From a virus, in IMG/VR virus record IMGVR_UViG_3300030099_004560, positions 1 to 31,617 of that record: a stretch of DNA of 31,617 bases. One strand, given 5' to 3'. Made by a program: the position numbers and the translations under genes. Shown piece by piece: positions 1,270 through 31,617 of the stretch. Positions within the stretch are counted from its first letter, which is position 1; each line of letters begins with the position of its first letter. The notes beneath the pieces are model-generated. The model saw only the letters and a program-made list of their open reading frames with translations, was not told the origin of the DNA and searched no databases.

Positions 1270-1285
1270 TGTTCCACGTGGAACA
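1270..1285. promoter_or_regulatory. parS: parS-like ParB-binding palindrome, site 1
   Basis: A perfect 16-bp palindrome, TGTTCCACGTGGAACA. It equals the bacterial parS consensus TGTTTCACGTGAAACA except for one symmetric pair of substitutions, and this variant is close to sites used by pseudomonad and some other proteobacterial ParB proteins. It lies in non-coding DNA about 180 bases upstream of terL, next to an A/T hairpin. Identical copies occur at 9508 and 12451. ParB binding here is inferred, not shown. Confidence 0.75.
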
Positions 1286-1421
1286 ATTTTTTCGGAAAAA
1301 ACCCGTAAGCCCCGAGCCGAGGTCCCTGAAACGTGTTACGGTTCAAAAAAAACGCGTACAGGAGTCCCAGAGCTTCAAAAATTTTGCAAAAAATTGAGAG
1401 CTACCGGATCGCATATATGTT

Positions 1422-1427
1422 TATAAT
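1422..1427 (+). promoter_or_regulatory. Candidate -10 element of a terL promoter
   Basis: A perfect TATAAT lies 38 bases upstream of the terL start, after an upstream terminator, where a promoter is expected. The only -35-like hexamer, TTGAGA at 1394-1399, is 22 bases away, which is too far for ordinary sigma-70 spacing. The -10 is plausible but the -35 is not convincing. Confidence 0.3.
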
Positions 1428-1446
1428 TGAAGTGAGTACTTACTAA

Positions 1447-1468
1447 CCCCGAGAGCTAGTGTTTATGC
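1447..1468 (+). repeat. Imperfect direct repeat, copy 2 (terL leader)
   Basis: Second copy of the element at 906-928. It contains the terL ribosome site (GAGAG, 1451-1455) and start ATG (1465). The intervening 520 bases carry the GC island and the parS-like site. Confidence 0.45.
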
Positions 1469-2943
1469 GGAGTAATGGTTCTAGTTTTGAGTCTTTAGAG
1501 GAAGCGGAAGAGAAGATTCTGAAGCTCGAATACCGGCTGGCGCAGATTGAGCAGGTTGAGTCGTGTCAGAGAGACTATTTGAGCTTTGTCCGGACGATGT
1601 GGCCCGAGTTTATTGCGGGTCGGCACCACAAGATCATGGCCGAGAAGCTTGAGCGAGTGGCCAGTGGGGAGTTGAAGCGGTTGATCATCAACATGCCGCC
1701 GCGTCACACGAAGTCTGAGTTTGCGAGTTTCCTGTTTCCGGCTTGGATGATTGGTAAAAACCCTGCAATGAAGATTATTCAGGCTACGCACACCACGGAA
1801 CTTGCGGTCAACTTTGGCCGGAAGATCAAGAATCTGCTGGAGAGAGATGATTATCTGGAGATTTTCCCTGATGCGGCGCTTTCTGCTGACTCGAAGGCGT
1901 CCGGTAGGTGGGACACGGCCCGTGGTGGTATGTATTACGGCGTAGGTGTGGGGTCAAACTTGGCGGGACGTGGTGGTGATTTGATCATTATTGACGATCC
2001 GCACTCTGAGCAGACGGCGATGTCGCTGAGTGGCTTTGATGATGCATGGGATTGGTACACAGGTGGTCCTCGACAGCGTTTGCAACCGGGCGGGGCCATC
2101 ATTGTGGTGATGACGAGGTGGTCAGAGAAGGATTTGACGGGTCAATTGATCCGGGCACAGGGTCGCGATGAGTTAGCGGACACTTGGGAAGTCATTGAGT
2201 TCCCGATGGAGATGCCTTCTGGGCAACCTTTGTGGCCGGAGTTCTGGTCATTTGAGGAAATGCAGGCGGTAAAGGGATCAATTCCCTTGCCCAAGTGGAA
2301 TGCCCAGTACCAGCAGAACCCTACTGGTGATGAAAACGCGATTATCAAGCGCGAGTGGTGGAATGTGTGGGATAAACAGCAGATTCCGCAGTTGCAATAC
2401 GTGATTCAGAGCTATGACACGGCTTTTTCCAAGAATACGCGGGCGGATTACAGTGCGATTACGACTTGGGGCGTGTTTTATCCTGAAGAAGGCACGGTTG
2501 CGGGGCTAATTTTGCTGGATGCAAAGAAAGGGCGCTGGGATTTCCCTGAATTGAAGCAAGTTGCGATGGAATCCTACAAATTTTGGGAGCCTGAGACGGT
2601 AATTATTGAGGCAAAGGCGAGTGGTATGCCTTTGACCCACGAACTACGGAACATGGGCATCCCTGTGGTAAACTTTACGCCGAGTCGCGGTAACGATAAG
2701 GTATCGCGAGTACACAGTGTTTCTCCGCTTTTTGAAAGCGGGATGATTTGGGCACCGGATGAGTCTTGGGCGCACGATGTGATAGAAGAGTGTGCGGCGT
2801 TCCCTAATGGGGAGTATGATGACTTGGTAGACAGCACCACGCAGGCGTTGATGCGATACCGACAGGGTAACTTTGTTCAGTTGCCATCAGATTATTGGGA
2901 AGATGAGAGTGCGAATCTTCGGCCAATGCAATATTACGGGTAG
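1465..2943 (+). CDS. terL: Terminase large subunit (DNA packaging ATPase and nuclease)
   Basis: 492 residues from ATG 1465, chosen because GAGAG at 1451-1455 is well spaced; GTG 1459 is too close to it. The N-terminal ATPase shows a Walker A-like MPPRHTKS (about 77-84), a Walker B LIIIDDPH (173-180) and a coupling-type motif VMTRWSEKDL (215-224). The C-terminal RNase H-like nuclease shows acidic residues in SYDTAF (D318), IIEAKASG (E382) and YDDLVDSTTQAL (about 451-462). The length is normal for the family. The enzyme pumps DNA into the prohead through the portal and cuts concatemers. It is the first gene of the head module. No recognisable small terminase subunit precedes it. Confidence 0.95.
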   Translation: MRSNGSSFESLEEAEEKILKLEYRLAQIEQVESCQRDYLSFVRTMWPEFIAGRHHKIMAEKLERVASGELKRLIINMPPRHTKSEFASFLFPAWMIGKNPAMKIIQATHTTELAVNFGRKIKNLLERDDYLEIFPDAALSADSKASGRWDTARGGMYYGVGVGSNLAGRGGDLIIIDDPHSEQTAMSLSGFDDAWDWYTGGPRQRLQPGGAIIVVMTRWSEKDLTGQLIRAQGRDELADTWEVIEFPMEMPSGQPLWPEFWSFEEMQAVKGSIPLPKWNAQYQQNPTGDENAIIKREWWNVWDKQQIPQLQYVIQSYDTAFSKNTRADYSAITTWGVFYPEEGTVAGLILLDAKKGRWDFPELKQVAMESYKFWEPETVIIEAKASGMPLTHELRNMGIPVVNFTPSRGNDKVSRVHSVSPLFESGMIWAPDESWAHDVIEECAAFPNGEYDDLVDSTTQALMRYRQGNFVQLPSDYWEDESANLRPMQYYG

Positions 2944-2948
2944 ATCTT

Positions 2949-4457
2949 ATGGGAAATAAAATGTTGATGTCCGGCATCGGTTCATATGCTCCTCAATACA
3001 TGAGCAACGGGGGTGGAGTACCGCTTGTTGGCGGCTCAAACCCTGCCGGATTAAATTTTTCCGGGGCTTTTAGTTACGACGCCTTGACGGAAGAACAAAA
3101 ACAACAGCTTGCCAATATGGGCATTGGTTACAACGTAACGGGAGCCACGGGCACCGGACGGGGTGGACAGGGTGGCGCTGGAGGGGCCAAAGCCGGACAA
3201 GGTCAGACGCCACTGCCTTCTTATTTGTACTTTGACGGCAACATGGTTGTACCGTACCGCGAAACCAATAACCGTCAGATGATAGACACGTTACGTCTTT
3301 TAGGTCTGGTAAGCGATGAGGACTACGCGTGGTTTAGTAATTATTTTAAAAATGAGCGCGGAGATGCTACGTGGCTCAATTCTTATTTTAATCGTCCGGA
3401 TGAGAACTTTCAGAGAGAACGGTTTTTTGAACGCACAGACTTTGACGATGAGACAGACGCGAGATGGAACCGGATATTTGATTCGATAGATGCGGCCAGC
3501 AAAACGGGCGGCTTTGCGACAGACGATAATTTCTTGATGCAGTATACCGACCAAGGGATTCGCTCTACTTTTGGCGCGGTGCGTCCTATGGGCGGTACGC
3601 CAAGGTCGCCCTTTTTTACGACTAGTGATGTGCTTGTTGATTCTTCGGAACAACCTAACCTTTACACTTACAACGATGGTCAGTTTGATCCCATGACCCA
3701 ACCGGCCCCGGTAAATCCATACCAGACTCCGGCGTCTGATTTAGCTTATCCGTATGTCCCACCCTCTGGCCCAACGCCCACATTGACTGCTACGACGGCT
3801 GACGCACAGCCGGTCAACTTGGAGGATACACAGGGCCGTGGAGATATTTACACGCCTACTGCCACGCCTACTCCCGTAACGCAAACTACTACTCCTGTCA
3901 CTACCGCCCCTACCCCTACCCCGACGCCCTTTGTTGACGAAGAGCTTATGGCATTGGATGACGAGCAGAAAAGTGTGTACGACGTTGTTAAATTTCTTGT
4001 GGAAAGCCGTCGGGGCGATCAGCTAACAAACGCTGAAGCCAACCAAATTTTGACGGCTTATGATGCAACAGGACGAGATTCAACAAAGCTTCAGAGTCTA
4101 ATTGCTGGGGATGTCAGCGGACAGGGCAATATTGACGTAGATCCCGGTGACGTGGCTTTGGCTCAAGGGCAAGCAATTTCGTCCACACCTTTTGTGCCTA
4201 CCGGTGGGACAGGATTAACTTCTACACAAGCCGCACTCAAAGCCATGGAAGAGCGTAAAGCCGCCGAAGCACAGGCGGGGCAGTTCGCTATGGGTGGCAT
4301 TGTGGATTTGACCGGCGGCATGGACATGTCGATGACCGGCCAAGGGTTAGAGACTTTCCTGAATCCAGAACGATCTAAAGCGACCCTTCGCCGTAACCTC
4401 GCGAAAACCGCACCACGGCCCACGATGCAAACGGGCATCATGCCCATGGCCCGATAA
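2949..4457 (+). CDS. Unknown phage protein with Pro/Thr-rich linker
   Basis: 502 residues, starting 5 bases after terL. The N-terminal part is glycine-rich (about 60-85) and is followed by a mixed domain rich in aromatic and acidic residues (about 95-215). A long Pro/Thr linker, roughly 270-330 (TPTPT, TTPVTTAPTP), leads to a helical segment. Around residue 387 the sequence GDVSGQGNIDVDPGD resembles a dockerin or EF-hand calcium loop with two extra residues. The C-terminus contains FAMGGIVDLTGG, a glycine motif also seen, as YAMGGEARY, near the end of the next gene. The place between terL and portal suggests a virion or packaging-associated protein, but I do not recognise a family. Confidence 0.75.
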   Translation: MGNKMLMSGIGSYAPQYMSNGGGVPLVGGSNPAGLNFSGAFSYDALTEEQKQQLANMGIGYNVTGATGTGRGGQGGAGGAKAGQGQTPLPSYLYFDGNMVVPYRETNNRQMIDTLRLLGLVSDEDYAWFSNYFKNERGDATWLNSYFNRPDENFQRERFFERTDFDDETDARWNRIFDSIDAASKTGGFATDDNFLMQYTDQGIRSTFGAVRPMGGTPRSPFFTTSDVLVDSSEQPNLYTYNDGQFDPMTQPAPVNPYQTPASDLAYPYVPPSGPTPTLTATTADAQPVNLEDTQGRGDIYTPTATPTPVTQTTTPVTTAPTPTPTPFVDEELMALDDEQKSVYDVVKFLVESRRGDQLTNAEANQILTAYDATGRDSTKLQSLIAGDVSGQGNIDVDPGDVALAQGQAISSTPFVPTGGTGLTSTQAALKAMEERKAAEAQAGQFAMGGIVDLTGGMDMSMTGQGLETFLNPERSKATLRRNLAKTAPRPTMQTGIMPMAR

Positions 4458-4458
4458 C

Positions 4459-4971
4459 ATGTCAGATGGAATAATGGGGTTAATTAATGAAGCGCGGGCT
4501 TACGCAGAATCAAAGTACGCGGCACATTTAGGAATGGACGACGACGCTATTGCTTGGGCCAATTCTGTTGGAGAAAAATACGGAAAAGCCGGTCAGTTTG
4601 ATGGAACAGCCGATGCCGCAAGACATATAGCTTTAGGGTGGCTAACTACGCAGACACCGGACCCAGAGCGCGCTTTTAAATCAATTCAAAACCGTGAAGA
4701 TTTTGGACTAGATCGTATTTCTGAATTTTTTAATCCCGAACATCGTGGTCGTCGGATGGATTTGCATAACAACCGGTTAGGTTACGAGCTTCCGGCTAAG
4801 ACAAGAGACGAAGCTGAAAAACTCATTAATCAGCTTATTCTTTCTAAAGAAGCTGAATATATGACCCCCGAAGAAAGCCGCAAAATGAGAGGCTATGCTA
4901 TGGGCGGTGAAGCGCGATATGATATAAGACGCGGCGTGGGCGCATTTGCCCCATACACTAGGAGTGCCTGA
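4459..4971 (+). CDS. Unknown protein with conserved His-containing motifs
   Basis: 170 residues; its TGA overlaps the portal ATG by one base. Two motif clusters stand out: TADAARHIALGW (about 50-61) and, after FNPEHRGRR, MDLHNNRLG (about 100-108). The combination of a DAxRH helix with a later D-x-x-NN-x-x-G recalls, from memory, small helical domains of the DUF6973 type found in phage and secreted proteins. I would not assign an activity. The C-terminus has YAMGGEARYDIRRGVGAFAPY, a glycine-arginine tail similar to the end of the preceding gene product. The gene context (terL, this gene, portal) argues for a head or packaging role. Confidence 0.75.
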   Translation: MSDGIMGLINEARAYAESKYAAHLGMDDDAIAWANSVGEKYGKAGQFDGTADAARHIALGWLTTQTPDPERAFKSIQNREDFGLDRISEFFNPEHRGRRMDLHNNRLGYELPAKTRDEAEKLINQLILSKEAEYMTPEESRKMRGYAMGGEARYDIRRGVGAFAPYTRSA

Positions 4972-7406
4972 TGGCCAATGGTGACGATAAAGCACAGCTA
5001 TCTTCGTTGATGGATAGCACGGCCCCTCGTTCTGAATTAGAAGATGCCGATCTTGAGTTGGACATTGAGATAGCCGCACCCGGTACTTTTGTAGGTAAAG
5101 TCAACGAGGTTTTGCCGGAAGGCATAGAGATTGAGGCCGAAGAAGATGGTGGAGTTACTGTCGATTTTGATCCTATGGCCATGGTTGGCCTTGATGACGG
5201 CGATTTCTATCGCAACTTGGCAGAGGAGTTGGACGATAGAGAGCTTGGCCGCCTATCTTCAGAGCTTTTAGGCGAGTTTGAAGCTAACAAATCTTCGCGT
5301 TCCGAGTGGGAGGACGCGTATTCCAAGGGCTTGGAGCTTTTGGGGTACAATTACGAAGAGCGCACAATGCCCTTTAGAGGGGCCACGGGCGTAACTCACC
5401 CATTGCTTGCAGAAGCGGCCACACAGTTTCAGGCACAGGCATTTAATGAGCTTTTGCCGCCGTCAGGGCCTGTTCGCACCCAGATTATTGGTGAAAAGAC
5501 GCGAGAAAACGAAGCGCAGGCGTTTCGTGTAAAAGAGTTTATGAACTACTACATCACCAACGTGATGGAGGAGTACACGCCTGAGTTTGATCAGATGCTG
5601 TTTTACCTGCCGCTGGCCGGTTCTACTTTCAAGAAAGTTTATTATGACGAGGCGATAGATCGCGCTGTCAGCAAGTTTGTCCCCGCAGAGGACATTGTGG
5701 TGCCGTATGGTGCCAGTGATTTAGATTCTTGTGAAAACATCACTCAGGTCGTGAAGATGACTTTAAATGATCTGCGTATCCGGCAGGTCATGGGTTTTTA
5801 CAGGGACATCCCCGTTATTCCGGCGCAAGGCGCAGAAGACGAGATTACGGGTGAGATCAATAAACTAGATGGGGTAGAACCCAGCAATCTGGATTATGAC
5901 TGCACTTTGCTTGAGTGCCACGTCAATCTGGACCTAGAAGGTTTTGAAGACACGGGGGAAGATGGCGAGCCAACGGGCATCAAAGTTCCGTATATCGTCA
6001 CGATAAGCGAAGATAGCGGCCAAGTTCTGTCTATTCGACGCAATTTTAAAGAAGAAGACGACGTAAAGAAAAAGATCCAGTATTTCGTGCACTACAAGTT
6101 TTTGCCGGGTTTTGGATTTTACGGCCTTGGTTTAATCCATACCATTGGTGGCCTGTCTCGCACAGCCACTGCGGCCTTACGTCAGTTGATTGATGCGGGT
6201 ACGTTGTCGAATCTACCGGCAGGTTTCAAGGCCCGTGGCCTACGGGTCAGGGACGATGAAGAACCGCTACAGCCCGGTGAGTTTAGGGATGTAGATGCGC
6301 CCGGTGGGGCTATCAGGGACTCTTTAATGCCGTTGCCGTTCAAGGGTCCAGACACCACGTTGTTCCAGCTTCTGGGCTTTGTGGTAGATGCGGGTCGTCG
6401 GTTCGCGACGATTACGGACATGAAAGTGGGCGATGGTAACCAGCAGGCGGCTGTCGGAACGACGGTAGCGTTGTTGGAACAGGGCTCACGGGTCATGAGT
6501 GCGGTGCATAAACGTCTGCACTATGGGATGCGTCAGGAGTTCAAGCTTCTCGCGCGGGTAATGTCCGAGTATTTGCCGCAGGAATACCCTTATGCGGTGA
6601 TGGGGGGTGATCGTGCGATCATGCAACGGGACTTTGATGACCGGATAGACGTTGTTCCGGTATCAAACCCCAACTCTTTCTCGCAGGCACAGCGTATTTC
6701 ACTGGCGCAAGCCCAGCTACAGATGGCCATGCAGGCCCCTCAAATGCATGATATGCATGAAGCATATCGTCGTATGTATGAGGCTTTGGGGGTCAATGAC
6801 GTAGACAAAATATTGATAGCGCCGTCCTCAGACGATCCAATACCAAAAGATCCCGCACAGGAAAACATGGATGTTCTTGATGGTGTTCAGTTGAAGGCCT
6901 TTGAGGGTCAGGACCATGATGCACACATTATGGCGCATTTAATTTTTTCGACTTCTCCTACATTACAGGCGATGCCTACTGCCGCGATAGCTCTTCAAAA
7001 GCACATCATTGAACATGTGAAATTGAAATGTCAGGAAATGGCTACGGCACAAATGTTGCAACGAACCGGTGGCCAACCTTTGAACGCGGACATGGAGCTT
7101 GAGTTAGAAGCCATGGTCGCTCAAATCAATGCACAAGAGTTTGCCAAGCTGAAACAGCTTACAGCACAGATCACGGGCCAGAACCAAGGTGACCCGCTGG
7201 TGCAACTCAAGCAACAGGAGCTTCAGTTGGATGCTCAGAAGCAACAGGCAGAGTTGCAGATGGATCAGGCAGAGTTGCAGATGGATCAACAACGTATGGC
7301 TAACAAGCAGACTGAGTTCCAGCAACGACTTGCTAGTCAGGAACGACAGACGCAGGCTAGAATCGACGCGGCTTTACAACGTGAATTGTTAAAACGAGGT
7401 AATTGA
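4971..7406 (+). CDS. Portal protein (P22-like head-tail connector)
   Basis: 811 residues, starting at the ATG overlapping the previous stop. The portal forms the dodecameric ring at the unique vertex through which DNA enters and leaves. Support comes from its position shortly after terL, the length typical of large podoviral portals and blocks such as FMNYYITNVMEEYTPEFDQ, LPLAGSTFKKVYYD and VPAEDIVVPYGASDL, which I know from P22-type portals in marine phages. Residues from about 735 form a glutamine-rich coiled coil (QQELQLDAQKQQAELQMDQ), partly encoded by a 21-base tandem duplication at about 7245-7288. Such a tail corresponds to the barrel region of P22 portals. It is probably translationally coupled to its upstream neighbour. 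Confidence 0.88.
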   Translation: MANGDDKAQLSSLMDSTAPRSELEDADLELDIEIAAPGTFVGKVNEVLPEGIEIEAEEDGGVTVDFDPMAMVGLDDGDFYRNLAEELDDRELGRLSSELLGEFEANKSSRSEWEDAYSKGLELLGYNYEERTMPFRGATGVTHPLLAEAATQFQAQAFNELLPPSGPVRTQIIGEKTRENEAQAFRVKEFMNYYITNVMEEYTPEFDQMLFYLPLAGSTFKKVYYDEAIDRAVSKFVPAEDIVVPYGASDLDSCENITQVVKMTLNDLRIRQVMGFYRDIPVIPAQGAEDEITGEINKLDGVEPSNLDYDCTLLECHVNLDLEGFEDTGEDGEPTGIKVPYIVTISEDSGQVLSIRRNFKEEDDVKKKIQYFVHYKFLPGFGFYGLGLIHTIGGLSRTATAALRQLIDAGTLSNLPAGFKARGLRVRDDEEPLQPGEFRDVDAPGGAIRDSLMPLPFKGPDTTLFQLLGFVVDAGRRFATITDMKVGDGNQQAAVGTTVALLEQGSRVMSAVHKRLHYGMRQEFKLLARVMSEYLPQEYPYAVMGGDRAIMQRDFDDRIDVVPVSNPNSFSQAQRISLAQAQLQMAMQAPQMHDMHEAYRRMYEALGVNDVDKILIAPSSDDPIPKDPAQENMDVLDGVQLKAFEGQDHDAHIMAHLIFSTSPTLQAMPTAAIALQKHIIEHVKLKCQEMATAQMLQRTGGQPLNADMELELEAMVAQINAQEFAKLKQLTAQITGQNQGDPLVQLKQQELQLDAQKQQAELQMDQAELQMDQQRMANKQTEFQQRLASQERQTQARIDAALQRELLKRGN

Positions 7407-7407
7407 T

Positions 7408-7608
7408 ATGAGAGTTAAAGTAGACGGCGCACCGCCCAAGAACCCCCCAAACCCTGTAGCCAAGGCCGATATTCAAGGTCAAGGCTCTATTCCTTATGCT
7501 GTAGCAAAAGAGGAAAAGACTCCGGATATTACGTTTGCCAAGGTAACTACAGGCAAAAAGCGTGGTATGGGGGCGGCTTTACGTGGCTCACGCTTCACTA
7601 ACGCTTAA
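7408..7608 (+). CDS. Small basic proline-rich protein, unknown
   Basis: 66 residues, beginning one base after the portal stop. The N-terminal half is proline-rich (GAPPKNPPNP) and the C-terminus is glycine/arginine-rich (KKRGMGAALRGSRFTNA). No family is recognised. The tight spacing places it in the same transcript as the portal, before the lysis cassette. The size and composition fit a minor virion component or an unstructured assembly factor, but this is only inference. Confidence 0.65.
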   Translation: MRVKVDGAPPKNPPNPVAKADIQGQGSIPYAVAKEEKTPDITFAKVTTGKKRGMGAALRGSRFTNA

Positions 7609-7622
7609 TTTAGGGGGTTTTG

Positions 7623-8024
7623 ATGCTACAAGCACTGATAGGTCCTGTTACCGGTTTACTGGATAAGTTTATACCGGACGCTGACGAAAAGGCGAAGCTT
7701 GCACATGAAATTGCAACAATGTCCGAGCGTCATGCTCAAGAGCTTGCAAAAGGTCAGATTGAGATTAACAAGGCCGAAGCGGCACACAAGTCTATGTTTG
7801 TCGCGGGCTGGCGACCATTTGTTGGGTGGACTTGCGGTGTTGCTCTGGCTTGGCACTTTGTCGGCCAGCCTATTGCTGTTTTTGTCATCACATTTGCTGG
7901 TGTGGAAGCCCCTCCGTTACCTGTGTTTGAAATGGAGAGCCTTCTTACAGTTTTGCTTGGGATGTTGGGCCTCGGTGGTCTACGGACCTTTGAGAAGACC
8001 AAACAGGTAGCTCGCGAAAAATGA
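7623..8024 (+). CDS. Holin, three-transmembrane gene-transfer-agent type
   Basis: 133 residues from ATG 7623, with AGGGGG at 7612-7617 five bases upstream; an in-frame TTG at 7620 is less likely. The soluble N-terminus (1-60) has a charged helix (ADEKAKLAHEIATMSERHAQEL). The hallmark GWRPFVGWTCG (62-72) opens the first membrane segment (about 66-92), and a second hydrophobic stretch covers 103-122. This pattern matches the 'holin of 3TMs, for gene-transfer release' family known from Rhodobacter-type GTAs. It would form the pores that time lysis. Its stop overlaps the next start (ATGA at 8021-8024), and a lytic peptidase lies two genes downstream. Confidence 0.88.
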   Translation: MLQALIGPVTGLLDKFIPDADEKAKLAHEIATMSERHAQELAKGQIEINKAEAAHKSMFVAGWRPFVGWTCGVALAWHFVGQPIAVFVITFAGVEAPPLPVFEMESLLTVLLGMLGLGGLRTFEKTKQVAREK

Positions 8025-8191
8025 AATGTTATGACTGCCAAACTGAACTGATCTGGGGCGGCGATCACGATAATGATCGTGACGATGAGCATTTAATCGA
8101 AACTAATCTTTCTTGTCCCGAATGCGGTGCGTTTGTAGTGGTTTGGTGGGGAAAGAAAGAGGACGAAAATCTTGACGCCAGAACAGCTTAA
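8021..8191 (+). CDS. Zinc-ribbon mini-protein
   Basis: 56 residues, start ATG overlapping the holin stop. Two CxxC knuckles (C3/C6 and C32/C35) with 25 residues between them predict a zinc ribbon. Between the knuckles lies an acidic stretch, GGDHDNDRDDEH, and the C-terminal part is beta-like (AFVVVWWGKK). I have seen closely similar proteins in marine cyanophages and other phages, without known function. Its 3' end overlaps the next gene by 20 bases, so it is translated within the lysis cassette although nothing suggests a lytic activity. It could be a small regulator or anti-host factor. Confidence 0.85.
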   Translation: MKCYDCQTELIWGGDHDNDRDDEHLIETNLSCPECGAFVVVWWGKKEDENLDARTA

Positions 8192-8366
8192 CGCGTGGCG
8201 TATCATCCCGCGGATACTCATGTTTGCCATGATTGCCATGACATACCGGACGGTTGAGTGGTTTATGTCTTTGCCTGACCCCAATCCCGAGCAAGCGGCA
8301 CTGGTGTCTGTGATGACGGGCGCTCTGACCGGCTCATTTGGTTTGTTTCTTGGGAAAAAAGAGTGA
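8172..8366 (+). CDS. Small two-helix membrane protein (holin-like)
   Basis: 64 residues from a TTG start at 8172, inside the end of the zinc-ribbon gene. The first hydrophobic segment spans about 10-32 (IIPRILMFAMIAMTY...), then the loop SLPDPNPEQAA, then a glycine-rich hydrophobic segment at 43-60 (VSVMTGALTGSFGLFLG) and a lysine tail GKKE. Two membrane spans with a charged tail fit a second holin, an antiholin or a pinholin-like partner of the upstream holin. The TGA overlaps the GTG of the peptidase gene (GTGA at 8363-8366), so the lysis genes are coupled. The exact start is uncertain because TTG is rare. Confidence 0.75.
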   Translation: MTPEQLNAWRIIPRILMFAMIAMTYRTVEWFMSLPDPNPEQAALVSVMTGALTGSFGLFLGKKE

Positions 8367-8713
8367 GCGAGTTTAAATACTTCAAGCTGTCTGATTTTAA
8401 CTGTCAGGAGACAGGTGAGAACGAGATGGACTTGGACTTTATCAGGAGTCTTGACGAGCTAAGAGAAGCCTGCGGCTTTCCGTTCATAGTTAACTCTGGA
8501 TTCAGGTCTGCCAGTCATAGCGTAGAGGCAAAGAAGTCAAAGCCGGGAATGCACAACTCGGGAGTTGCTGTTGACATATCAGTAGCAGACGGTGTGCAAA
8601 GACTGGCAGTTGTGCAAAAAGCTATAGAGCATGGATTTACAGGCATTGGCGTAGCCAAGACATTTGTTCATGTAGACAAAAGAACCTCTACTCCGGTGAT
8701 GTGGACATATTAG
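8363..8713 (+). CDS. Endolysin-type M15 peptidase (D-Ala-D-Ala carboxypeptidase-like)
   Basis: 116 residues from a GTG that overlaps the previous stop. The M15 zinc site is complete: H64 and D71 in GMHNSGVAVDIS, and H103 in FVHVD. SGFRSASH (45-52) is the usual loop before the site. The length matches compact single-domain phage peptidases (Peptidase_M15_3 type) that cut peptidoglycan cross-bridges. There is no signal peptide, so export depends on the holin upstream. It closes the lysis cassette, and a likely promoter starts one base after its stop codon. Confidence 0.9.
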   Translation: MSEFKYFKLSDFNCQETGENEMDLDFIRSLDELREACGFPFIVNSGFRSASHSVEAKKSKPGMHNSGVAVDISVADGVQRLAVVQKAIEHGFTGIGVAKTFVHVDKRTSTPVMWTY

Positions 8714-8742
8714 TTGCTCCTTTTAGACTGTCGTGGTATATA
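8714..8742 (+). promoter_or_regulatory. Candidate sigma-70 promoter for the head gene block
   Basis: TTGCTC (8714-8719) and TATATA (8737-8742) are separated by exactly 17 bases in the 56-base gap after the peptidase stop. It would drive the co-chaperonin, scaffold and capsid genes up to the terminator at 12430. The -35 matches the consensus at three or four positions only. Confidence 0.4.
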
Positions 8743-8769
8743 GATAAGACTTTCTGAGATGGAGCGCAT

Positions 8770-8967
8770 GTGGACTCATTACACCTAGTTCAATTTATAC
8801 AAAAGGTTATAAAGGAACGTCGCACACAAGTCTTAGAATTGTTGGAAAACAATAGCGTAAAGTCGATGGAGCAGTACCAAAACCTTATGGGGGAGCTATC
8901 GGCTTTGAATCATGTAGCACAGGAACTCTCGGGCCTGCTAGAAAAACAGGAGCAACTAAATGACTGA
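8770..8967 (+). CDS. Small helical protein of unknown function
   Basis: 65 residues from a GTG start with GGAG (8761-8764) five bases upstream; the ATG at 8768 is in another frame and stops at once. The whole protein appears alpha-helical (LVQFIQKVIKERRTQVLELL, LSALNHVAQELSGLLEKQEQ), forming a probable two-helix hairpin. It overlaps the co-chaperonin gene by 8 bases. I do not recognise a family; its position at the head of the capsid assembly block suggests an assembly role. Confidence 0.75.
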   Translation: MDSLHLVQFIQKVIKERRTQVLELLENNSVKSMEQYQNLMGELSALNHVAQELSGLLEKQEQLND

Positions 8968-9406
8968 TCTAGCTGAAGAAATTGACCTAGACGCCGCCGC
9001 AGAAGGCGTCAAATCCCTTTACAAAGCTCCACAGCCCAAGGTACTTGACCCCGAGGCCATGGACAAAAGTCTTTTGGAGCGTATGCCACAGCCCACCGGC
9101 TGGCGCATGTTAATCCTCCCATACCGCGGTAAAGAAACCACGGAAGGCGGTATTTATATTCCCAATCAAGTCTTGAACGACACTCAGCTTCAGACTGTCG
9201 TGGGATATGTCGTTAAGCAAGGCCCCCTTTGCTACAAAGACGCTGAAAAGTTCCCTGACGGCCCATGGTGCACCGAAAAACAGTGGGTAATCTTTGCTCG
9301 TTATGCTGGTTCTCGGTTCCGTATTGACGGCGGGGAGTGCAGGATTTTGAATGATGACGAAATCTTAGCGACTATTGACGATCCAGAAGACATTCTTAGT
9401 TTGTAA
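8960..9406 (+). CDS. GroES-like co-chaperonin (Cpn10)
   Basis: 148 residues. The Cpn10 fold starts near residue 43 (PTGWRMLILPYRG). The mobile loop follows (KETTEGGIYIP, 58-68), where GroES has the GGIVL motif that contacts GroEL. Later motifs VVGYVVKQGP, VIFARYAGSRFRIDG and ECRILNDDEILATI (to 139) match the family's C-terminal strands. An N-terminal extension of about 40 residues is not present in bacterial GroES. Phage co-chaperonins such as T4 gp31 replace host GroES so that GroEL can fold a capsid protein that does not fit the normal cage. The position just before scaffold and capsid supports this role. No GroEL gene is in the window. Confidence 0.88.
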   Translation: MTDLAEEIDLDAAAEGVKSLYKAPQPKVLDPEAMDKSLLERMPQPTGWRMLILPYRGKETTEGGIYIPNQVLNDTQLQTVVGYVVKQGPLCYKDAEKFPDGPWCTEKQWVIFARYAGSRFRIDGGECRILNDDEILATIDDPEDILSL

Positions 9407-9418
9407 AGGAGAAGCACC

Positions 9419-10339
9419 ATGGGAGAACCTGCTGAAGAACCTCAATTTGAATTAGATGTGGGAGATGCTGAAGCCACAGAGGTGGAGATTGAGCAACCTG
9501 AAGAAGATGTTCCACGTGGAACAACTGATTCGGAAGAACCTGTGATTGAGGTAGAGCAAGAAGCCTCGCCTGACGACGAAATGGCCGAGTACAGCGAATC
9601 TGTACAGAAACGCATTAATCGTTTGACTAAAAAAATGCGCGAAGCCGAGCGTCGTGAAGAAGAGGCCCTGAAGTTTGCACAAAATGTGCAGGCCGAATCA
9701 GAACAAATCAAACAGAGGATGCAAAACCTAGATCAAGGTTTTATGACCGAATACGGTCAGCGCATCCAACTCCAACAACAGCAGGCTGAAGCGGCCCTCA
9801 AACGCGCTGTTGAGTTAGGTGATGCAGAAGGAACCGTAGTCGCTCAGAAAGAACTGACGGATATCACCATTGCGGCTAACCAATATGCTCAAGCTCAGAG
9901 ACGTGCTGAAGCTAATCAACAGGTTCCGCAACAACAGGCTCCACAAGCCGCACCGCAACAACAAGCCCCACAACAGCCTCAAAGGCCTGATCCCAAAGCA
10001 GAGCAGTGGGCGGAAAAAAACTCTTGGTTTGGTCAAGACGAGGCAATGACTTTTGCCGCCTTTGGAATTCACAAAAAATTAGTGGAAGACGAGGGGTTTG
10101 ACCCGCAAGGGGATGACTACTACAATGAATTGGACTCTAGAATTAAGCGGGAGTTCCCGCATAAATTTGGAGAGGAGCAATCCACTGGCCGCAAGCCCGC
10201 TCAGAATGTTGCCGGTGTCTCACGCTCCACCAAAACTGGGCGCAGTGGTAAAAGGGTCAAACTCTCCCCGACCCAAGTAACAATTGCTAAAAAGTTGGGA
10301 GTGCCGCTTGAAGAATACGCGAAATACGTAAAGGAGTAA
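9419..10339 (+). CDS. Probable capsid scaffolding protein
   Basis: 306 residues with a strong ribosome site (AAGGAGA, 9406-9412) six bases before ATG. The N-terminal 55 residues are very acidic. Residues about 60-160 are charged helical coiled coil (QKRINRLTKKMREAERREEE), followed by a Q/P-rich linker (about 165-195). A C-terminal helical part ends in a basic stretch (STKTGRSGKRVKLSPTQVTIAKKL). Acidic, coiled-coil proteins with a basic end, encoded a few genes before the major capsid, are typical scaffolds that fill the prohead and bind the coat through the basic tail. A parS-like palindrome is embedded in codons 30-35 (D-V-P-R-G-T). Confidence 0.75.
   Translation: MGEPAEEPQFELDVGDAEATEVEIEQPEEDVPRGTTDSEEPVIEVEQEASPDDEMAEYSESVQKRINRLTKKMREAERREEEALKFAQNVQAESEQIKQRMQNLDQGFMTEYGQRIQLQQQQAEAALKRAVELGDAEGTVVAQKELTDITIAANQYAQAQRRAEANQQVPQQQAPQAAPQQQAPQQPQRPDPKAEQWAEKNSWFGQDEAMTFAAFGIHKKLVEDEGFDPQGDDYYNELDSRIKREFPHKFGEEQSTGRKPAQNVAGVSRSTKTGRSGKRVKLSPTQVTIAKKLGVPLEEYAKYVKE
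9508..9523. promoter_or_regulatory. parS: parS-like ParB-binding palindrome, site 2 (inside scaffold gene)
   Basis: Second perfect copy of TGTTCCACGTGGAACA, covering the last base of codon 30 to codon 35 of the probable scaffold gene and read as V-P-R-G-T. With one flanking base pattern (GA before, A after) it matches site 1 over 19 bases. The neutral or basic VPRGT interrupts an otherwise strongly acidic stretch, which suggests that the DNA site rather than the protein was selected. Confidence 0.75.
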
Positions 10340-10343
10340 GACT

Positions 10344-10826
10344 ATGTCCACAGAGAAGAAAGGCTTTGAGGGCATTAACCGCTCCTCACGTGAAACAGCG
10401 TCAAGGGAGACACAGGGACGGCGTAAGCCTTGGACTCCCCCGTCTATGTTAGACGCCCCGCCCGCACCAGAGGGCTTTAAACATCGTTGGATACGCGCCG
10501 AAGTAAGGGGTTTTGACGACACCAAGAATATTTCGGCAAGGTTGCGAGAAGGCTATGAGCTTGTTCGCCAAGATGAGTATCCAGATTTTGAAGCACCGGT
10601 AATTGATTCGGGTAAATATGAGGGTGTGTTTGGTGTTGGCGGATTGATGCTCGCTCGTATACCGTTGGAAACAGTAGAAGAACGCGCTGAGTATTTTGCT
10701 CAACGTAACGCGGACCAGATCGAAGCTGTGGAAAGCGATATGATGCGAGAAAACGCTCATCCAACGATGGCAATCGGTAAACCCGAACGCCAGAGTCGTG
10801 TAACTTTTGGCGGCCCCAAAAAATAG
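10344..10826 (+). CDS. Probable head-associated protein, unknown
   Basis: 160 residues, with AAGGAG before ATG and only 4 bases after the scaffold stop. The N-terminus is basic and serine-rich (GINRSSRETASRETQGRRKPW). The middle contains KHRWIRAEVRGFDDTKNISARLREGYELV, then a small beta region (IDSGKYEGVFGVGGLMLARIP) and a helical segment (ERAEYFAQRNADQIEAVESDMM). I know similar proteins placed between scaffold and capsid in marine T7-like and other short-tailed phages, annotated only as hypothetical. A role in head assembly is inferred from the position. A GC stem-loop overlaps its stop codon. Confidence 0.75.
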   Translation: MSTEKKGFEGINRSSRETASRETQGRRKPWTPPSMLDAPPAPEGFKHRWIRAEVRGFDDTKNISARLREGYELVRQDEYPDFEAPVIDSGKYEGVFGVGGLMLARIPLETVEERAEYFAQRNADQIEAVESDMMRENAHPTMAIGKPERQSRVTFGGPKK

Positions 10827-10832
10827 GGCCGC
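10810..10832 (+). promoter_or_regulatory. GC stem-loop in the capsid gene transcript
   Basis: GCGGCCC (10810-10816) pairs perfectly with GGGCCGC (10826-10832) around a 9-base A-rich loop. The hairpin spans the stop codon of the upstream gene and lies just before the leader of the next. No T-run follows, so it is not a classical terminator; it may be an mRNA processing or stability element. Confidence 0.5.
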
Positions 10833-10852
10833 ACAGAATGGAGAACTAAGTT

Positions 10853-11503
10853 ATGGCAAATCAAGAAACTGCCTTTGGTCTTCGTCCTGTAGGTCTGGTA
10901 GGAAGCGGTGTTAACAGCACCGGAGTTACTCAGTATGAAATTGCTAGTAACAACACTAATGCTATTTTTAACGGAAGCATCTGTGTTCCCACTGCCGCAG
11001 GCGTTATAGACCAAGCTGGAGCTACAAGTGGCGGCACTACGCAAGCCCTTGGCGTTCTGGTAGGGGTTGAATATCAAGACGCCACACAAAAGAAACCTGT
11101 GTTTCTTAATTACTGGCCCGGATCAGGAAGCGTATCGGTAGATACCAATTTTCCTGTAAAGGCTCTTGTGGCTGATAACCCTGATCAACTGTTCGTCGTT
11201 GCGGCGGATGCATCTCTCACTGACCGAGCTACTGCATTAACGGCTGTTTTTGCTAACGCAAGTCTGGGAACTTCTGCCCGTACCGGTTCTACCGATACAG
11301 GCAAGTCAAATTCTCAGCTTTCTGTAAGCAGTATTGCTGTTACTGCTACGCTACCTTTGCGTATCGTAGGTTTGGTTGATGATGAAGCTAATCAAGATTA
11401 CGCTTCAGTAGGGGCACATCTGCTTGTTCGATTGAACGCTCATTTCAACGCTGGCACACGTGGTTTTGCTTCACAAACCACTGCCGACTCAACCGGCATT
11501 TAA
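10853..11503 (+). CDS. Probable head decoration or capsid-associated protein
   Basis: 216 residues, good ribosome site (GGAGAA) before ATG. The start, MANQETAFGLRPVGLVGSG, is a pattern I associate with proteins encoded directly before the major capsid gene in marine phages. The rest is beta-rich, small-residue sequence (GSICVPTAAGVIDQAGATSGG, VSVDTNFPVKALVADNPDQLFVVAA), consistent with a virion surface or decoration protein. There are no membrane segments or catalytic motifs. It is 13 bases upstream of the capsid gene, so co-expression at high level is likely. The decoration role is inferred from composition and context. Confidence 0.75.
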   Translation: MANQETAFGLRPVGLVGSGVNSTGVTQYEIASNNTNAIFNGSICVPTAAGVIDQAGATSGGTTQALGVLVGVEYQDATQKKPVFLNYWPGSGSVSVDTNFPVKALVADNPDQLFVVAADASLTDRATALTAVFANASLGTSARTGSTDTGKSNSQLSVSSIAVTATLPLRIVGLVDDEANQDYASVGAHLLVRLNAHFNAGTRGFASQTTADSTGI

Positions 11504-11516
11504 GGGGGATTAAGTA

Positions 11517-12422
11517 ATGGCTATTTCTCGCGCACAGTTGGCGAAGGAACTTGAGCCGGGGCTTAACGCTCTTTTCGGACTTGAGTATGATCGCTACGAG
11601 CAAGAACACTCTGAAATCTTTGAAGAAGAGACTTCAGATCGTGCTTTTGAAGAAGAAGTAATGCTGTCTGGCTTCGGCACTGCGCCGGTTAAGTCAGAAG
11701 GTGGTGCTATTTCGTTTGATGACGCGCAGGAGACATTTACTGCACGTTATACTCACGAAACGATTGCACTGGCATTTTCAATCACCGAAGAGGCGATTGA
11801 AGACAACCTGTATGACCGCCTTGCTTCTCGTTACACTCGTGCTTTGGCACGATCCATGTCCCAGACCAAGCAGATTAAGGCCGCTTCAATTCTGAACAAC
11901 GCCTTTAGCACCGGTTCTCCTGTTGGAGATGGTGCCGCTCTCTGCTCTTCGGCTCACCCGTCCCTTTCAGGGAACCAGCGTAACTTGCTGTCAACTGCCG
12001 CTGACCTCAACGAGACTTCTCTTGAGCAGATGTTGATTGACATTGCCGGTTTCACGGATGAGCGTGGTCTGAAGATCGCGGTACGTGGTATGAAGTTGAT
12101 TATTCCTAAAGAACTGCAATTTATTGCGGAAAGAGTAATTAACTCTAACCTAAGAACTGCCACGGCGGACAACGACCTAAATGCCATGAAATCCATGGGC
12201 ATGCTCCCAGATGGGGCGGTAGTTAATCATTTCTTGACCGACACAGATGCGTTCTTCATTAAGACTGACGCACCTAACGGTTTTAAAATGTTTAACAGAA
12301 GCCCCATCAAGACTGCCATGGAAGGTGACTTTGATACTGGAAACATGCGTTTTAAAGCGCGTGAGCGATACAGTTTTGGAGTTTCCGATTGGCGTTGTGT
12401 TTTTGCCACACCGGGTGCTTAA
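11517..12422 (+). CDS. Major capsid protein
   Basis: 301 residues, preceded by GGGGGAT at an ideal distance. The protein fits an HK97-fold coat protein of the Mu gpT-like type: an N-terminal helical arm (RAQLAKELEPGLNALFGLEYDRYEQ), an E-loop-like region around FDDAQETFTARYTHETIALAFSITEEAIEDNLYDR, a long helix (LARSMSQTKQIKAASILNNAF) and a beta-rich P- and A-domain. It ends SFGVSDWRCVFATPGA. It follows scaffold and decoration genes, and its transcript ends in a strong terminator immediately after the stop, as is common for the most abundant virion protein. There is no separate protease gene, so the head may mature without cleavage. Confidence 0.88.
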   Translation: MAISRAQLAKELEPGLNALFGLEYDRYEQEHSEIFEEETSDRAFEEEVMLSGFGTAPVKSEGGAISFDDAQETFTARYTHETIALAFSITEEAIEDNLYDRLASRYTRALARSMSQTKQIKAASILNNAFSTGSPVGDGAALCSSAHPSLSGNQRNLLSTAADLNETSLEQMLIDIAGFTDERGLKIAVRGMKLIIPKELQFIAERVINSNLRTATADNDLNAMKSMGMLPDGAVVNHFLTDTDAFFIKTDAPNGFKMFNRSPIKTAMEGDFDTGNMRFKARERYSFGVSDWRCVFATPGA

Positions 12423-12429
12423 AAACAAA

Positions 12430-12451
12430 GCCGCCTTCGGGCGGCTTTTTT
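12430..12451 (+). terminator. Strong rho-independent terminator after the capsid gene
   Basis: GCCGCC (12430-12435), UUCG tetraloop (12436-12439), GGCGGC (12440-12445), then six T (12446-12451). The A-rich bases upstream (12420-12429) could make it work on both strands. The last T is the first base of a parS-like palindrome. Confidence 0.93.
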
Positions 12452-12466
12452 GTTCCACGTGGAACA
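12451..12466. promoter_or_regulatory. parS: parS-like ParB-binding palindrome, site 3
   Basis: Third perfect copy of TGTTCCACGTGGAACA, in the gap between the capsid terminator and the next gene. It is followed 10 bases later by TATAAA (12477-12482), which could be a -10 element, although no matching -35 is seen. Protein bound here could affect transcription of the downstream virion genes. Confidence 0.75.
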
Positions 12467-12536
12467 TTTATGTTAGTATAAATTTTTCCTGACAGCCTCA
12501 TACTGAGGTTGACACTGGCCACGACAGGAGAACCTC

Positions 12537-13019
12537 ATGGCTAATACTACGTTTAACGGTCCCGTCCGTTCCGAAAACGGTTTTTCAGATATCACCAAAA
12601 ACTCCACTACCGGCGCTGTAACCAGCACCATGACGCTTTCTACCTACGAAACTACTATCACGGTAGCTGACGGTGCCACTACGGGCAAAGAGTCTGCAAT
12701 TGGTATTCCAGATAATTTTATCCCTATGGGCGTTACAATTGCCGTTACTACCGCCGCCGCAAACTCTGTCACGCTTAATGATATCGGCACAGATGCTGAT
12801 ACTGACGGTTTTGTTGATGGTATTTCTGCCGCTCTAAATTCAACTGGTTTCAAGGGGTTTTTCCCATGTAACGGTGTCCTTGGCATGTCCGGTGGAACAA
12901 CCACTGCGGCTACTGGTACAGCGGACGAGGTTGAGCTTGTTGTTTCGGGAGATCCCGGCGGCGACACAGTTATTGTTTTGAAGTTTTTTGGAATTTCCAG
13001 CACTTCTGACGCATCATAA
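12537..13019 (+). CDS. Probable virion decoration protein
   Basis: 160 residues with AGGAG (12526-12530) six bases before ATG. Small-residue, threonine-rich beta sequence throughout (TTGAVTSTMTLSTYETTITVADG, IPMGVTIAVTTAAANSVTLNDIGTD), with GDPGGDTVIVLKFFGI at the end. This is the type of compact beta protein often found immediately after the major capsid gene in marine phages, and a head-surface role is likely. No catalytic features are visible. It is the first gene after the capsid terminator and begins a new block. A short hairpin (CCTCA-TAC-TGAGG, 12496-12508) lies in its leader. Confidence 0.7.
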   Translation: MANTTFNGPVRSENGFSDITKNSTTGAVTSTMTLSTYETTITVADGATTGKESAIGIPDNFIPMGVTIAVTTAAANSVTLNDIGTDADTDGFVDGISAALNSTGFKGFFPCNGVLGMSGGTTTAATGTADEVELVVSGDPGGDTVIVLKFFGISSTSDAS

Positions 13020-20387: not shown

Positions 20388-21818
20388 ATGAAGTTCTTGG
20401 GCAAAGACCCCAACATCATTGATGCCTATTACACCGCTACGGCTGAAGGCGCGATTACGGCTGGAAAACCTGTCATTGTTGAGGCAGATGGTGATGTAGC
20501 TCAAGTAGCGTTAGGTGGTTCAGAACTAGGTTCTGCCGCCGTTGTTGATAGCAATAATGTCTCTCAAACTCTAATAGCCTATGACTCAAGTGCGGGCAAG
20601 GTGGTTATTGCGTACAGAGACAATACAAACGCAAATAAAGGACAAGCCCGAGTAGGCACTGTTTCTGGAAGTTCAATTACTTTTGGTACAGAGGTTGCTT
20701 TTGCTGACGCGCAAACTACCCCTCTGGGCATTTCGTATGATGCGAATGCAGAAAAGGTGGTTATCATTTTTTATGACGATGACAACTCAAACTATGGCAC
20801 GGCTGTTGTCGGCACGATAAGCGGTACGGATATTAGTTTTGGCACAGAGGTTGTTTATAACTCTGCCAACTCATACGGCGGAGGCATAGCTTACGACATC
20901 AACGCTCAAAAACATTTGATTGCTTACAGAGATAGTGATAATCGCGGCAAGGCCCGCGTGGGCACGGTGTCGGGGACGAGTATTTCTTTTGGAACTGAGG
21001 CGCAGTTTGAGTCAAGTACTTTCTATTACGGCGAAGTAACCTACGACGAAACCGCACAAAAAAGTATTATTTTCTGGAATAGAGGGTTTGGTAGCGGTCA
21101 GGCAGTTGTCGCTACGATTAGCGGCACTGATGTCACTTATGGAAGCATTGCAGAGTTCTCGTCTAGCGCGTTAGGTTCTGAAGGCCCAGAGGGGGCTTAT
21201 GATGCAACATCACAAAAAGTAGTTGTTGCTTATGCAGACAACGGTAATTCTGGTTATGGCACTGCTAAAGTCTGCACTATTAGCGGAACAAGTGTAAGTT
21301 TTGGGAGCGCCCAAGTTTACAACTCTACCGCAGAGGCTATGACGGGTCTTGGGGCTGGTGGAGGAAAGCTCGTTGTGGCGTATTCAATCAACTCAACAAG
21401 CAAAGGAAAACTCAACGTAGGAACAGTGTCTGGGACATCCATATCGTGGGATTCCGCTGTAGAGTTTGAGGACGCACAAGTTGAAAATACTGCTGTTGCA
21501 TACGATTCCACAGCAGGCCGATTTGTCATTGCTTATCGAGATCAGGGAAATTCTAGCGCCGGTACATCAATAGTTTTTGCGGCTGTTACCGTAAACCTCA
21601 CCTCAGAAAACTACATAGGCATCGCCGCCGATACTTACTCTGACAATGAAGACTCAACGATTGGCATAGTCGGCTGCATAGATCGTAATCAAACCAGCCT
21701 GACAGCAGGCCAGCAATATTTTGTTCAGACTGACGGCACACTTAGCACCACAGCAGGATCGCCGTCTGTTCTGGCTGGCACTGCCATATCCGCTACTGAA
21801 CTGGTGGTGAAAGAATGA
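20388..21818 (+). CDS. Seven-repeat beta-propeller-like tail protein, paralogue 1
   Basis: 476 residues. After an N-terminal piece (AEGAITAGKPVIVEADGDVA, about 20-39), seven repeats of about 45-50 residues follow, each built on KVVIAYRD-x-NSxYGTAxVGTxSGTxISFG and a following strand. I count seven: KVVIAYRDN, KVVIIFYDD, KHLIAYRDS, KSIIFWNRG, KVVVAYADN, KLVVAYSIN and RFVIAYRDQ. The tail (about 398-476) has NLTSENYIGIA and LTAGQQYFVQTDGTLSTTA. Seven short four-strand-like repeats imply a seven-bladed propeller. A surface, possibly glycan-binding, role is inferred. It is the most divergent of three tandem paralogues. Confidence 0.78.
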   Translation: MKFLGKDPNIIDAYYTATAEGAITAGKPVIVEADGDVAQVALGGSELGSAAVVDSNNVSQTLIAYDSSAGKVVIAYRDNTNANKGQARVGTVSGSSITFGTEVAFADAQTTPLGISYDANAEKVVIIFYDDDNSNYGTAVVGTISGTDISFGTEVVYNSANSYGGGIAYDINAQKHLIAYRDSDNRGKARVGTVSGTSISFGTEAQFESSTFYYGEVTYDETAQKSIIFWNRGFGSGQAVVATISGTDVTYGSIAEFSSSALGSEGPEGAYDATSQKVVVAYADNGNSGYGTAKVCTISGTSVSFGSAQVYNSTAEAMTGLGAGGGKLVVAYSINSTSKGKLNVGTVSGTSISWDSAVEFEDAQVENTAVAYDSTAGRFVIAYRDQGNSSAGTSIVFAAVTVNLTSENYIGIAADTYSDNEDSTIGIVGCIDRNQTSLTAGQQYFVQTDGTLSTTAGSPSVLAGTAISATELVVKE

Positions 21819-31542: not shown

Positions 31543-31617
31543 GTGGCTACTGAAACTACTCGCCAGATTATTCAGGAAGCGCCTGAGATAGAGGCAAAAC
31601 GCCTTGAACTTTTAAAC
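31543..31617 (+). CDS. Start of an unknown tail-module gene (truncated by window end)
   Basis: GTG at 31543, one base after the previous stop, is followed by an open frame to the window end: 25 codons beginning VATETTRQIIQEAPEIEAKR and continuing LELLN. The 'TRQIIxEAPxIEAxxLxLL' start is a pattern I know from conserved marine phage structural proteins encoded next to the large virion gene. Too little is present to say more. Confidence 0.65.
   Translation, partial: MATETTRQIIQEAPEIEAKRLELLN

Follow-up and report, generated by a model that had tools for sequence, protein, structure and literature searches.

Chromosome-type parS sites in a marine podovirus without a detected ParB, and the probable borrowing of the host segregation machinery

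This study concerns a 31,617-base virus record from IMG/VR (IMGVR_UViG_3300030099_004560; the whole stretch is referred to as the window), which is a fragment of a marine HTVC023P-like podovirus, and a 16-bp palindrome, TGTTCCACGTGGAACA, which the window carries in three exact copies. The first copy (site A, 1270-1285) is located in the gap between terS and terL, 174 nt before the gene encoding the 494-aa terminase large subunit (terL, 1459-2943, + strand; PHROG phrog_38, E 2e-105, and tblastn to phage terL). The second (site B, 9508-9523) lies within a gene on the + strand (9419-10339) whose 306-aa product matches phrog_28737, a family without assigned function, and which we infer to be a scaffold from its position between a GroES-like co-chaperonin gene (8960-9406, + strand; phrog_3188) and the capsid gene. 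The third (site C, 12451-12466) follows the gene for the 301-aa major capsid protein (MCP; 11517-12422, + strand; phrog_371) by ~30 nt, directly behind an intrinsic terminator-like hairpin (12427-12448, + strand). A preliminary description of this DNA had placed the sites close to terL and to the scaffold and capsid genes. Sites A and C do lie before terL and after the capsid gene, while site B is inside the scaffold-like gene, so the sites are not all intergenic. A 57,663-bp record, G002, represents the same species, agrees with the window at 31,596 of 31,617 positions and carries the same three sites.

The pairing of ParB with parS is the main chromosome-segregation signal of bacteria. The three exact copies in the window exceed chance, as had been claimed: a Markov-1 model predicts 9.7e-6 exact copies for the window, and shuffled sequences contained a mean of 0.24 copies at up to three mismatches and never reached three. 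No further copy with three or fewer mismatches was found in the window. Throughout IMG/VR, at least 120 stretches carry each of the two parS forms, TGTTCCACGTGGAACA and TGTTTCACGTGAAACA; control palindromes with G or A at position 5 were found in 29 and 4 stretches, respectively, and the palindrome read backwards had no match in the collection. The preliminary description had also considered the 16-mer to be one symmetric pair away from parS. This was an error, as TGTTCCACGTGGAACA is identical to parS2/parS3 of Pseudomonas aeruginosa (PMC4368675) and to the P. putida parS consensus (PMC7022226), and the pair differs only when compared with the TGTTTCACGTGAAACA form of parS.

Like the chromosomal parS of the ParB/Spo0J type (Pseudomonas, Caulobacter, Bacillus), the phage sites have the 16-bp sequence TGTTYCACGTGRAACA, tolerate changes only as Y/R at positions 5/12 with the rest fixed, are sometimes clustered and are maintained by selection on the DNA. 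Unlike chromosomal parS, they are located in packaging and structural modules, on a phage without detected parAB, and neither parAB nor a chromosomal origin (oriC) lies alongside. They also differ from the Noc-binding sites (NBS), which are read by a ParB relative in Firmicutes, in that all of them carry the parS bases at the distinguishing positions 1 and 6 (PMC7383237). Judged by sequence, the three sites in the window are genuine chromosome-type parS.

The selection on these sites became apparent in a census of perfect 16-bp palindromes over all loci of the family (~160 relatives). Only two such palindromes occur in contexts unrelated to one another: TGTTCCACGTGGAACA, with 56 copies in 19 contexts, and TGTTTCACGTGAAACA, with 33 copies in 12; some of the loci overlap, and the context counts are safer than the copy counts. 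Among these relatives, no other 16-bp palindrome was present in more than one context, and other symmetric single-pair changes of either form were represented by 0 copies. The variants in the census match the published sequence range of chromosomal parS, and mixed half-sites such as TGTTCCACGTGAAACA occur too. Although 83% of the loci is covered by open reading frames (ORFs), 23 of the 34 distinct contexts are outside ORFs (P ~5e-11), and true coding sites exist beside this majority.

Site B corresponds to an inserted V-P-R-G-T in the hypervariable acidic N-terminus of the scaffold-like protein, an insertion which an alignment revealed in 10 distinct homologues and which is absent from 60 others. 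The five codons (GTT CCA CGT GGA ACA) are all fourfold degenerate, and their third positions are invariant (5/5) in the ten homologues, compared with 23/74 fourfold positions elsewhere in the gene and 3/25 within 300 nt. By the whole-gene fraction, this synonymous freeze has a P of ~0.003, uncorrected for shared ancestry. The pattern of bases at the sites indicates that selection acts on the DNA and not on the protein, and the palindrome census and the synonymous freeze (5/5 vs 23/74) both support the initial proposal that three copies mean selection. Chance or a protein-level constraint only is a practically negligible explanation: the synonymous-site and palindrome tests, the shuffles, the Markov-1 expectation and the IMG/VR controls all contradict it, and what may be said for it is that the one-mismatch match of phage HTVC027P, located in an apparent unannotated ORF, is perhaps a coincidence. 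That match was not counted as evidence.

The same observations bear on the idea that the palindrome works as RNA, in the form of a transcribed stem-loop serving as a terminator, processing or stability element. The palindrome can fold into a 6-bp stem with a 4-nt loop, T-rich sequence follows sites A and C, and in some other phages every copy is between genes. However, any base pair would do in such a stem, yet the 31 contexts show only C-G or T-A at positions 5/12. The loop ACGT is fixed too, the mixed TGTTCCACGTGAAACA breaks a stem pair (C-A) yet is kept, site B is inside a gene, and an Rfam scan gave no match at the three sites, which leaves an RNA hairpin highly improbable. A terminator function was rejected as well: weak terminator-like hairpins were scored at sites A and C, yet this reading is at odds with site B and with other contexts.

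We also followed the placement of the sites across relatives. The location of site A is common to loci L007, L012, L013, L014 and L016, and that of site C to L242-L247, L249 and L251. The upstream sequence was long enough in 73 TerL relatives, and in 32 of these the 400 bp before terL contain TGTTYCACGTGRAACA with no more than one mismatch; many TerL relatives have two sites 24 bp apart, a C-form and a T-form, in either order. The places that recur are before terL, around the portal gene and after the capsid gene. When aligned, the gap upstream of terL consists of divergent AT-rich DNA with parS fixed within it; across relatives the flanks diverge while the 16 bp remain constant, and outside them the only preference is for a flanking A and a flanking T. 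Sites B and C recur in relatives whose MCP is at least 95% identical. They appear to be young, because capsid relatives beyond ~95% identity mostly do not have them; the location upstream of terL is shared more widely. When loci were drawn solely by the 16-mer, 30/119 and 38/118 of the matches listed were relatives of the window's family, and in these the sites were again near terL, the portal gene and the capsid gene. Of the ten IMG/VR family records that reach at least 44 kb, nine contain at least one site, in one of these with a mismatch.

Some related records carry denser groups of sites. In L388 (10535-11462), five exact TGTTTCACGTGAAACA copies lie within ~0.9 kb, beside terL, and L361 (2657-3444) likewise has five exact copies within ~0.9 kb, 0.7-1.5 kb from a terL match; both arrays resemble the parS cluster of a chromosomal origin. 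A further record (L343/L346; IMGVR_UViG_3300037423_000235, 23,269 bp) carries a parS-like palindrome, TGTTACACGTGTAACA, in five or more copies; this palindrome is absent elsewhere in the window's family and is possibly the site for a ParB of changed specificity.

Upstream of terL there is a second conserved element, ATGTTTYTNNCRAAYA (1231-1246, + strand, in the window), which is found 100-445 nt before terL in many relatives, with or without parS, and is a candidate late promoter or pac/cos site. Its distance to terL is often longer in the presence of parS (-148 to -277) than in several parS-less relatives (-100 to -127), and other parS-less relatives have it at -219 to -445; these distances fit the gain or loss of a parS-bearing segment. 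This region is where a role in transcription control would be expected, with ParB near the late (terL) promoter repressing the late genes until replication dilutes ParB, as a copy-number timer. The ParB-parS complex of P. aeruginosa represses adjacent promoters (PMC5521831), and in one clade parS begins ~8 nt past a perfect TATAAT before terL and hence at the predicted start site, making a promoter-proximal role possible in that clade. By contrast, sites that lie within the scaffold gene or another long ORF, or that follow a terminator, are not positioned at promoters, and the window's own terL site, at 174 nt from the gene, has no scored promoter. As an account of the sites in general, we find such a timer rather improbable. 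The influence on packaging or late transcription mentioned in the preliminary description is possible, but it is not required, given sites in coding DNA, sites far from terL and positions that turn over.

No partition genes were detected in this phage family. ParB_N (PF02195) had no match in 14 family records, HTH_ParB (PF17762) none in 12 and TIGR00180 none in 16, and a six-frame scan of six genomes revealed no ORF with paired CTPase motifs. No ParA/ParB, integrase or repressor was found among 20 G002 proteins encoded outside the window and scanned against PHROGs and Pfam, with no search made by a ParA-specific hidden Markov model (HMM). Outside the window, G002 encodes a DNA polymerase A, a helicase, an AEP primase, nucleases and TerS, plus proteins without assigned function, and its replication genes are of the lytic type. 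The statement that no ParA or ParB is encoded here holds for the window, and the same-species G002 (57.7 kb) likewise has none detected; looking for parB in the rest of the genome and in relatives, as had been suggested, yielded nothing by three HMMs and the CTPase-motif scan.

These results also lend no support to the proposal of a ParB gene elsewhere in the phage genome and of persistence as a plasmid. A ParB of its own was rejected on the strength of the empty HMM searches in near-full-length relatives and by the equally empty motif scan, and the plasmid lifestyle was rejected as no integrase, repressor or other lysogeny or partition gene is present among the 20 G002 proteins scanned. Centromere sites on a phage genome are also a feature of phage-plasmids that carry a parABS of their own (P1, N15, extrachromosomal mycobacteriophage prophages), but these encode cognate partition proteins and have a lysogenic plasmid state, neither of which was detected in the window phage; the G002 proteins scanned include no cognate parA/parB products and no repressor, integrase or plasmid replication protein.

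A different reader of the 16-mer is conceivable, namely an unrecognised phage protein that has converged on ParB specificity and uses the palindrome as an operator or structural site. Several G002 genes without assigned function leave room for such a protein. The permitted variants, however, are those of chromosomal parS, the genomes scanned contain no match to the three ParB models and no ORF with the CTPase motifs, and phages that are unrelated and have other gene sets carry these sites too (G035 and L431, described below). We regard a phage-encoded reader of this kind as very unlikely.

Among 189 parS-bearing viral loci, ParB_N had a match in five, one of them below the cut-off, and none in the other 184; many of these loci are fragments, so that ParB carriage is a lower bound, and dozens are longer than 30 kb. 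Whether viruses widely carry chromosome-type parS but no ParB, in the window's family as in unrelated phages such as G035 and L431, and use host ParB (and perhaps SMC) as a free positioning, condensing or takeover device, seems to us an evenly balanced question. Alcaligenes phage vB_Af_QDWS535 (L211; host A. faecalis), a cultured, distant relative, has one exact parS (47934-47949), ~2.2 kb upstream of terL in the circular record and inside a small hypothetical gene, where it again encodes D-V-P-R-G-T. G035 (L337/L338), a different phage with polA, UvsX, a Cas4-like exonuclease and a queuine tRNA-ribosyltransferase, carries five exact TGTTCCACGTGGAACA copies (contig positions 21745, 23729, 25556, 26582 and 27863), mostly in short gaps from a stop codon to the next ribosome-binding site. 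L431 (G192, 116,662 bp) is a GC-rich viral contig in which ParB_N had no match; it contains twelve parS sites between 8906 and 13863, in gaps between genes, of which 11 are TGTTTCACGTGGAACA.

Because the DNA is under selection, matches chromosomal parS with its Y/R tolerance and comes without detected ParA or ParB, recruitment of host ParB, one of the options initially put forward, is the best reading of these sites, while the binding and its purpose are what we infer. The phage probably borrows the host chromosome-segregation machine during infection, and it is highly likely that host ParB binds the phage sites. ParB-CTP clamps load at parS and then slide; after injection, those of the host would load at the phage parS and slide onto phage DNA. 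Host ParA, and possibly SMC, would act on this ParB-phage DNA complex, and the phage genome would be positioned or partitioned through host ParABS. As the phage copy number rises, ParB would be drawn off the chromosomal origin, which would impair host segregation and division. In line with the first step, 17 ParBs of diverse bacteria prefer parS (PMC7383237). A genome-level function is favoured over a local one because the sites are position-independent and individual sites turn over while most genomes keep at least one.

It could be that the sites act as decoys only, titrating ParB from the host origin and so blocking host segregation and division, with no use of ParA for phage DNA. In Caulobacter, plasmid-borne parS lowers viability up to ~1000-fold, which the authors attribute to segregation of the plasmid instead of the chromosome, and ectopic parS disturbs MipZ too (PMC5815017). 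Besides this toxicity, a decoy would profit from sites that multiply with phage copy number, and position-independent placement suits titration. Most genomes, however, hold just 1-3 sites where a pure decoy would favour many, and the five-site arrays are found only in some related records (L388, L361). We consider a pure decoy unlikely.

We therefore return to the capture of host ParABS by a parS-bearing, ParB-less phage, for positioning or partition at the expense of the chromosome, which is our overall best explanation and which we hold to be moderately probable; that the main benefit is hitchhiking or positioning together with capture of the host machine is, in our estimation, close to an even call. 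A candidate host is suggested by a Maricaulis metagenome-assembled genome (MAG), one of whose contigs encodes a 99% identical TerL and which has a chromosomal TGTTTCACGTGAAACA between apparent mnmE and mnmG, the classical origin-proximal place of parS. Several points weigh against ParABS capture. The host link is weak, as it rests on MAG binning of phage contigs. A phage with lytic-type genes would gain less obviously from long-term partition, and with several G002 genes lacking an assigned function, a reader of the sequence other than ParB may exist. Finally, the proposed search for the 16-mer in relatives found it in many, but the cultured close relatives HTVC023P, DSL-LC04 and 023Pt_psg01 have no site and neither do several IMG/VR clades, so the sites would be dispensable for some hosts.

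By analogy, the nearest known case by function would be SGI1, which hijacks plasmid ParABS through parS mimics (PMC10954446). Like SGI1, which exploits the ParABS of IncC plasmids, the window phage is a mobile element that has parS sites and no ParB of its own detected. Unlike the phage, SGI1 mimics plasmid parS and targets a plasmid; the window, by comparison, belongs to a lytic-type phage, and its sites are of the chromosome type.

The portal protein (811 aa; 4971-7406, + strand; phrog_1216) is 54-59% identical to those of DSL-LC04, 023Pt_psg01 and the pelagiphages HTVC023P and HTVC027P, and portal and TerL together place the window near these four, with Roseobacter phage CRP-901 and Caulobacter phage RW as more distant kin. 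The GroES-like gene just ahead of the scaffold gene is a conserved feature of this podovirus family. The non-coding gap before terL contains GC-rich repeats of the GGGCCGCGG/CCCGCGGG type (~1018-1185), and similar GC-rich stretches are present in several relatives. Just past site C, in the stretch that separates the capsid gene from the gene following it, Rfam identifies a Mu-gpT-DE RNA (RF03012, 62 bits; 12487-12539). A scan for tRNAs as host clues found none, and the GC skew of G002 indicated no clear origin beside the sites.

Our search of the open-access literature, which leaves out most subscription journals, turned up no description of phages that have chromosomal parS but lack ParB, and to our knowledge the tagging of phage DNA with parS has until now been only a laboratory trick. 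If our reading is true, a natural phage lineage keeps parS without ParB, and viruses recruit the segregation machine of their hosts, which would also explain a segregation site within the coding sequence of a structural gene. The parS site would then be a simple sequence signature for dependency on this host machine. It would become possible to test directly how phage DNA is positioned, whether ParB is titrated and whether segregation fails in infection, and QDWS535, a cultured phage with A. faecalis as its host, would offer a natural test case.

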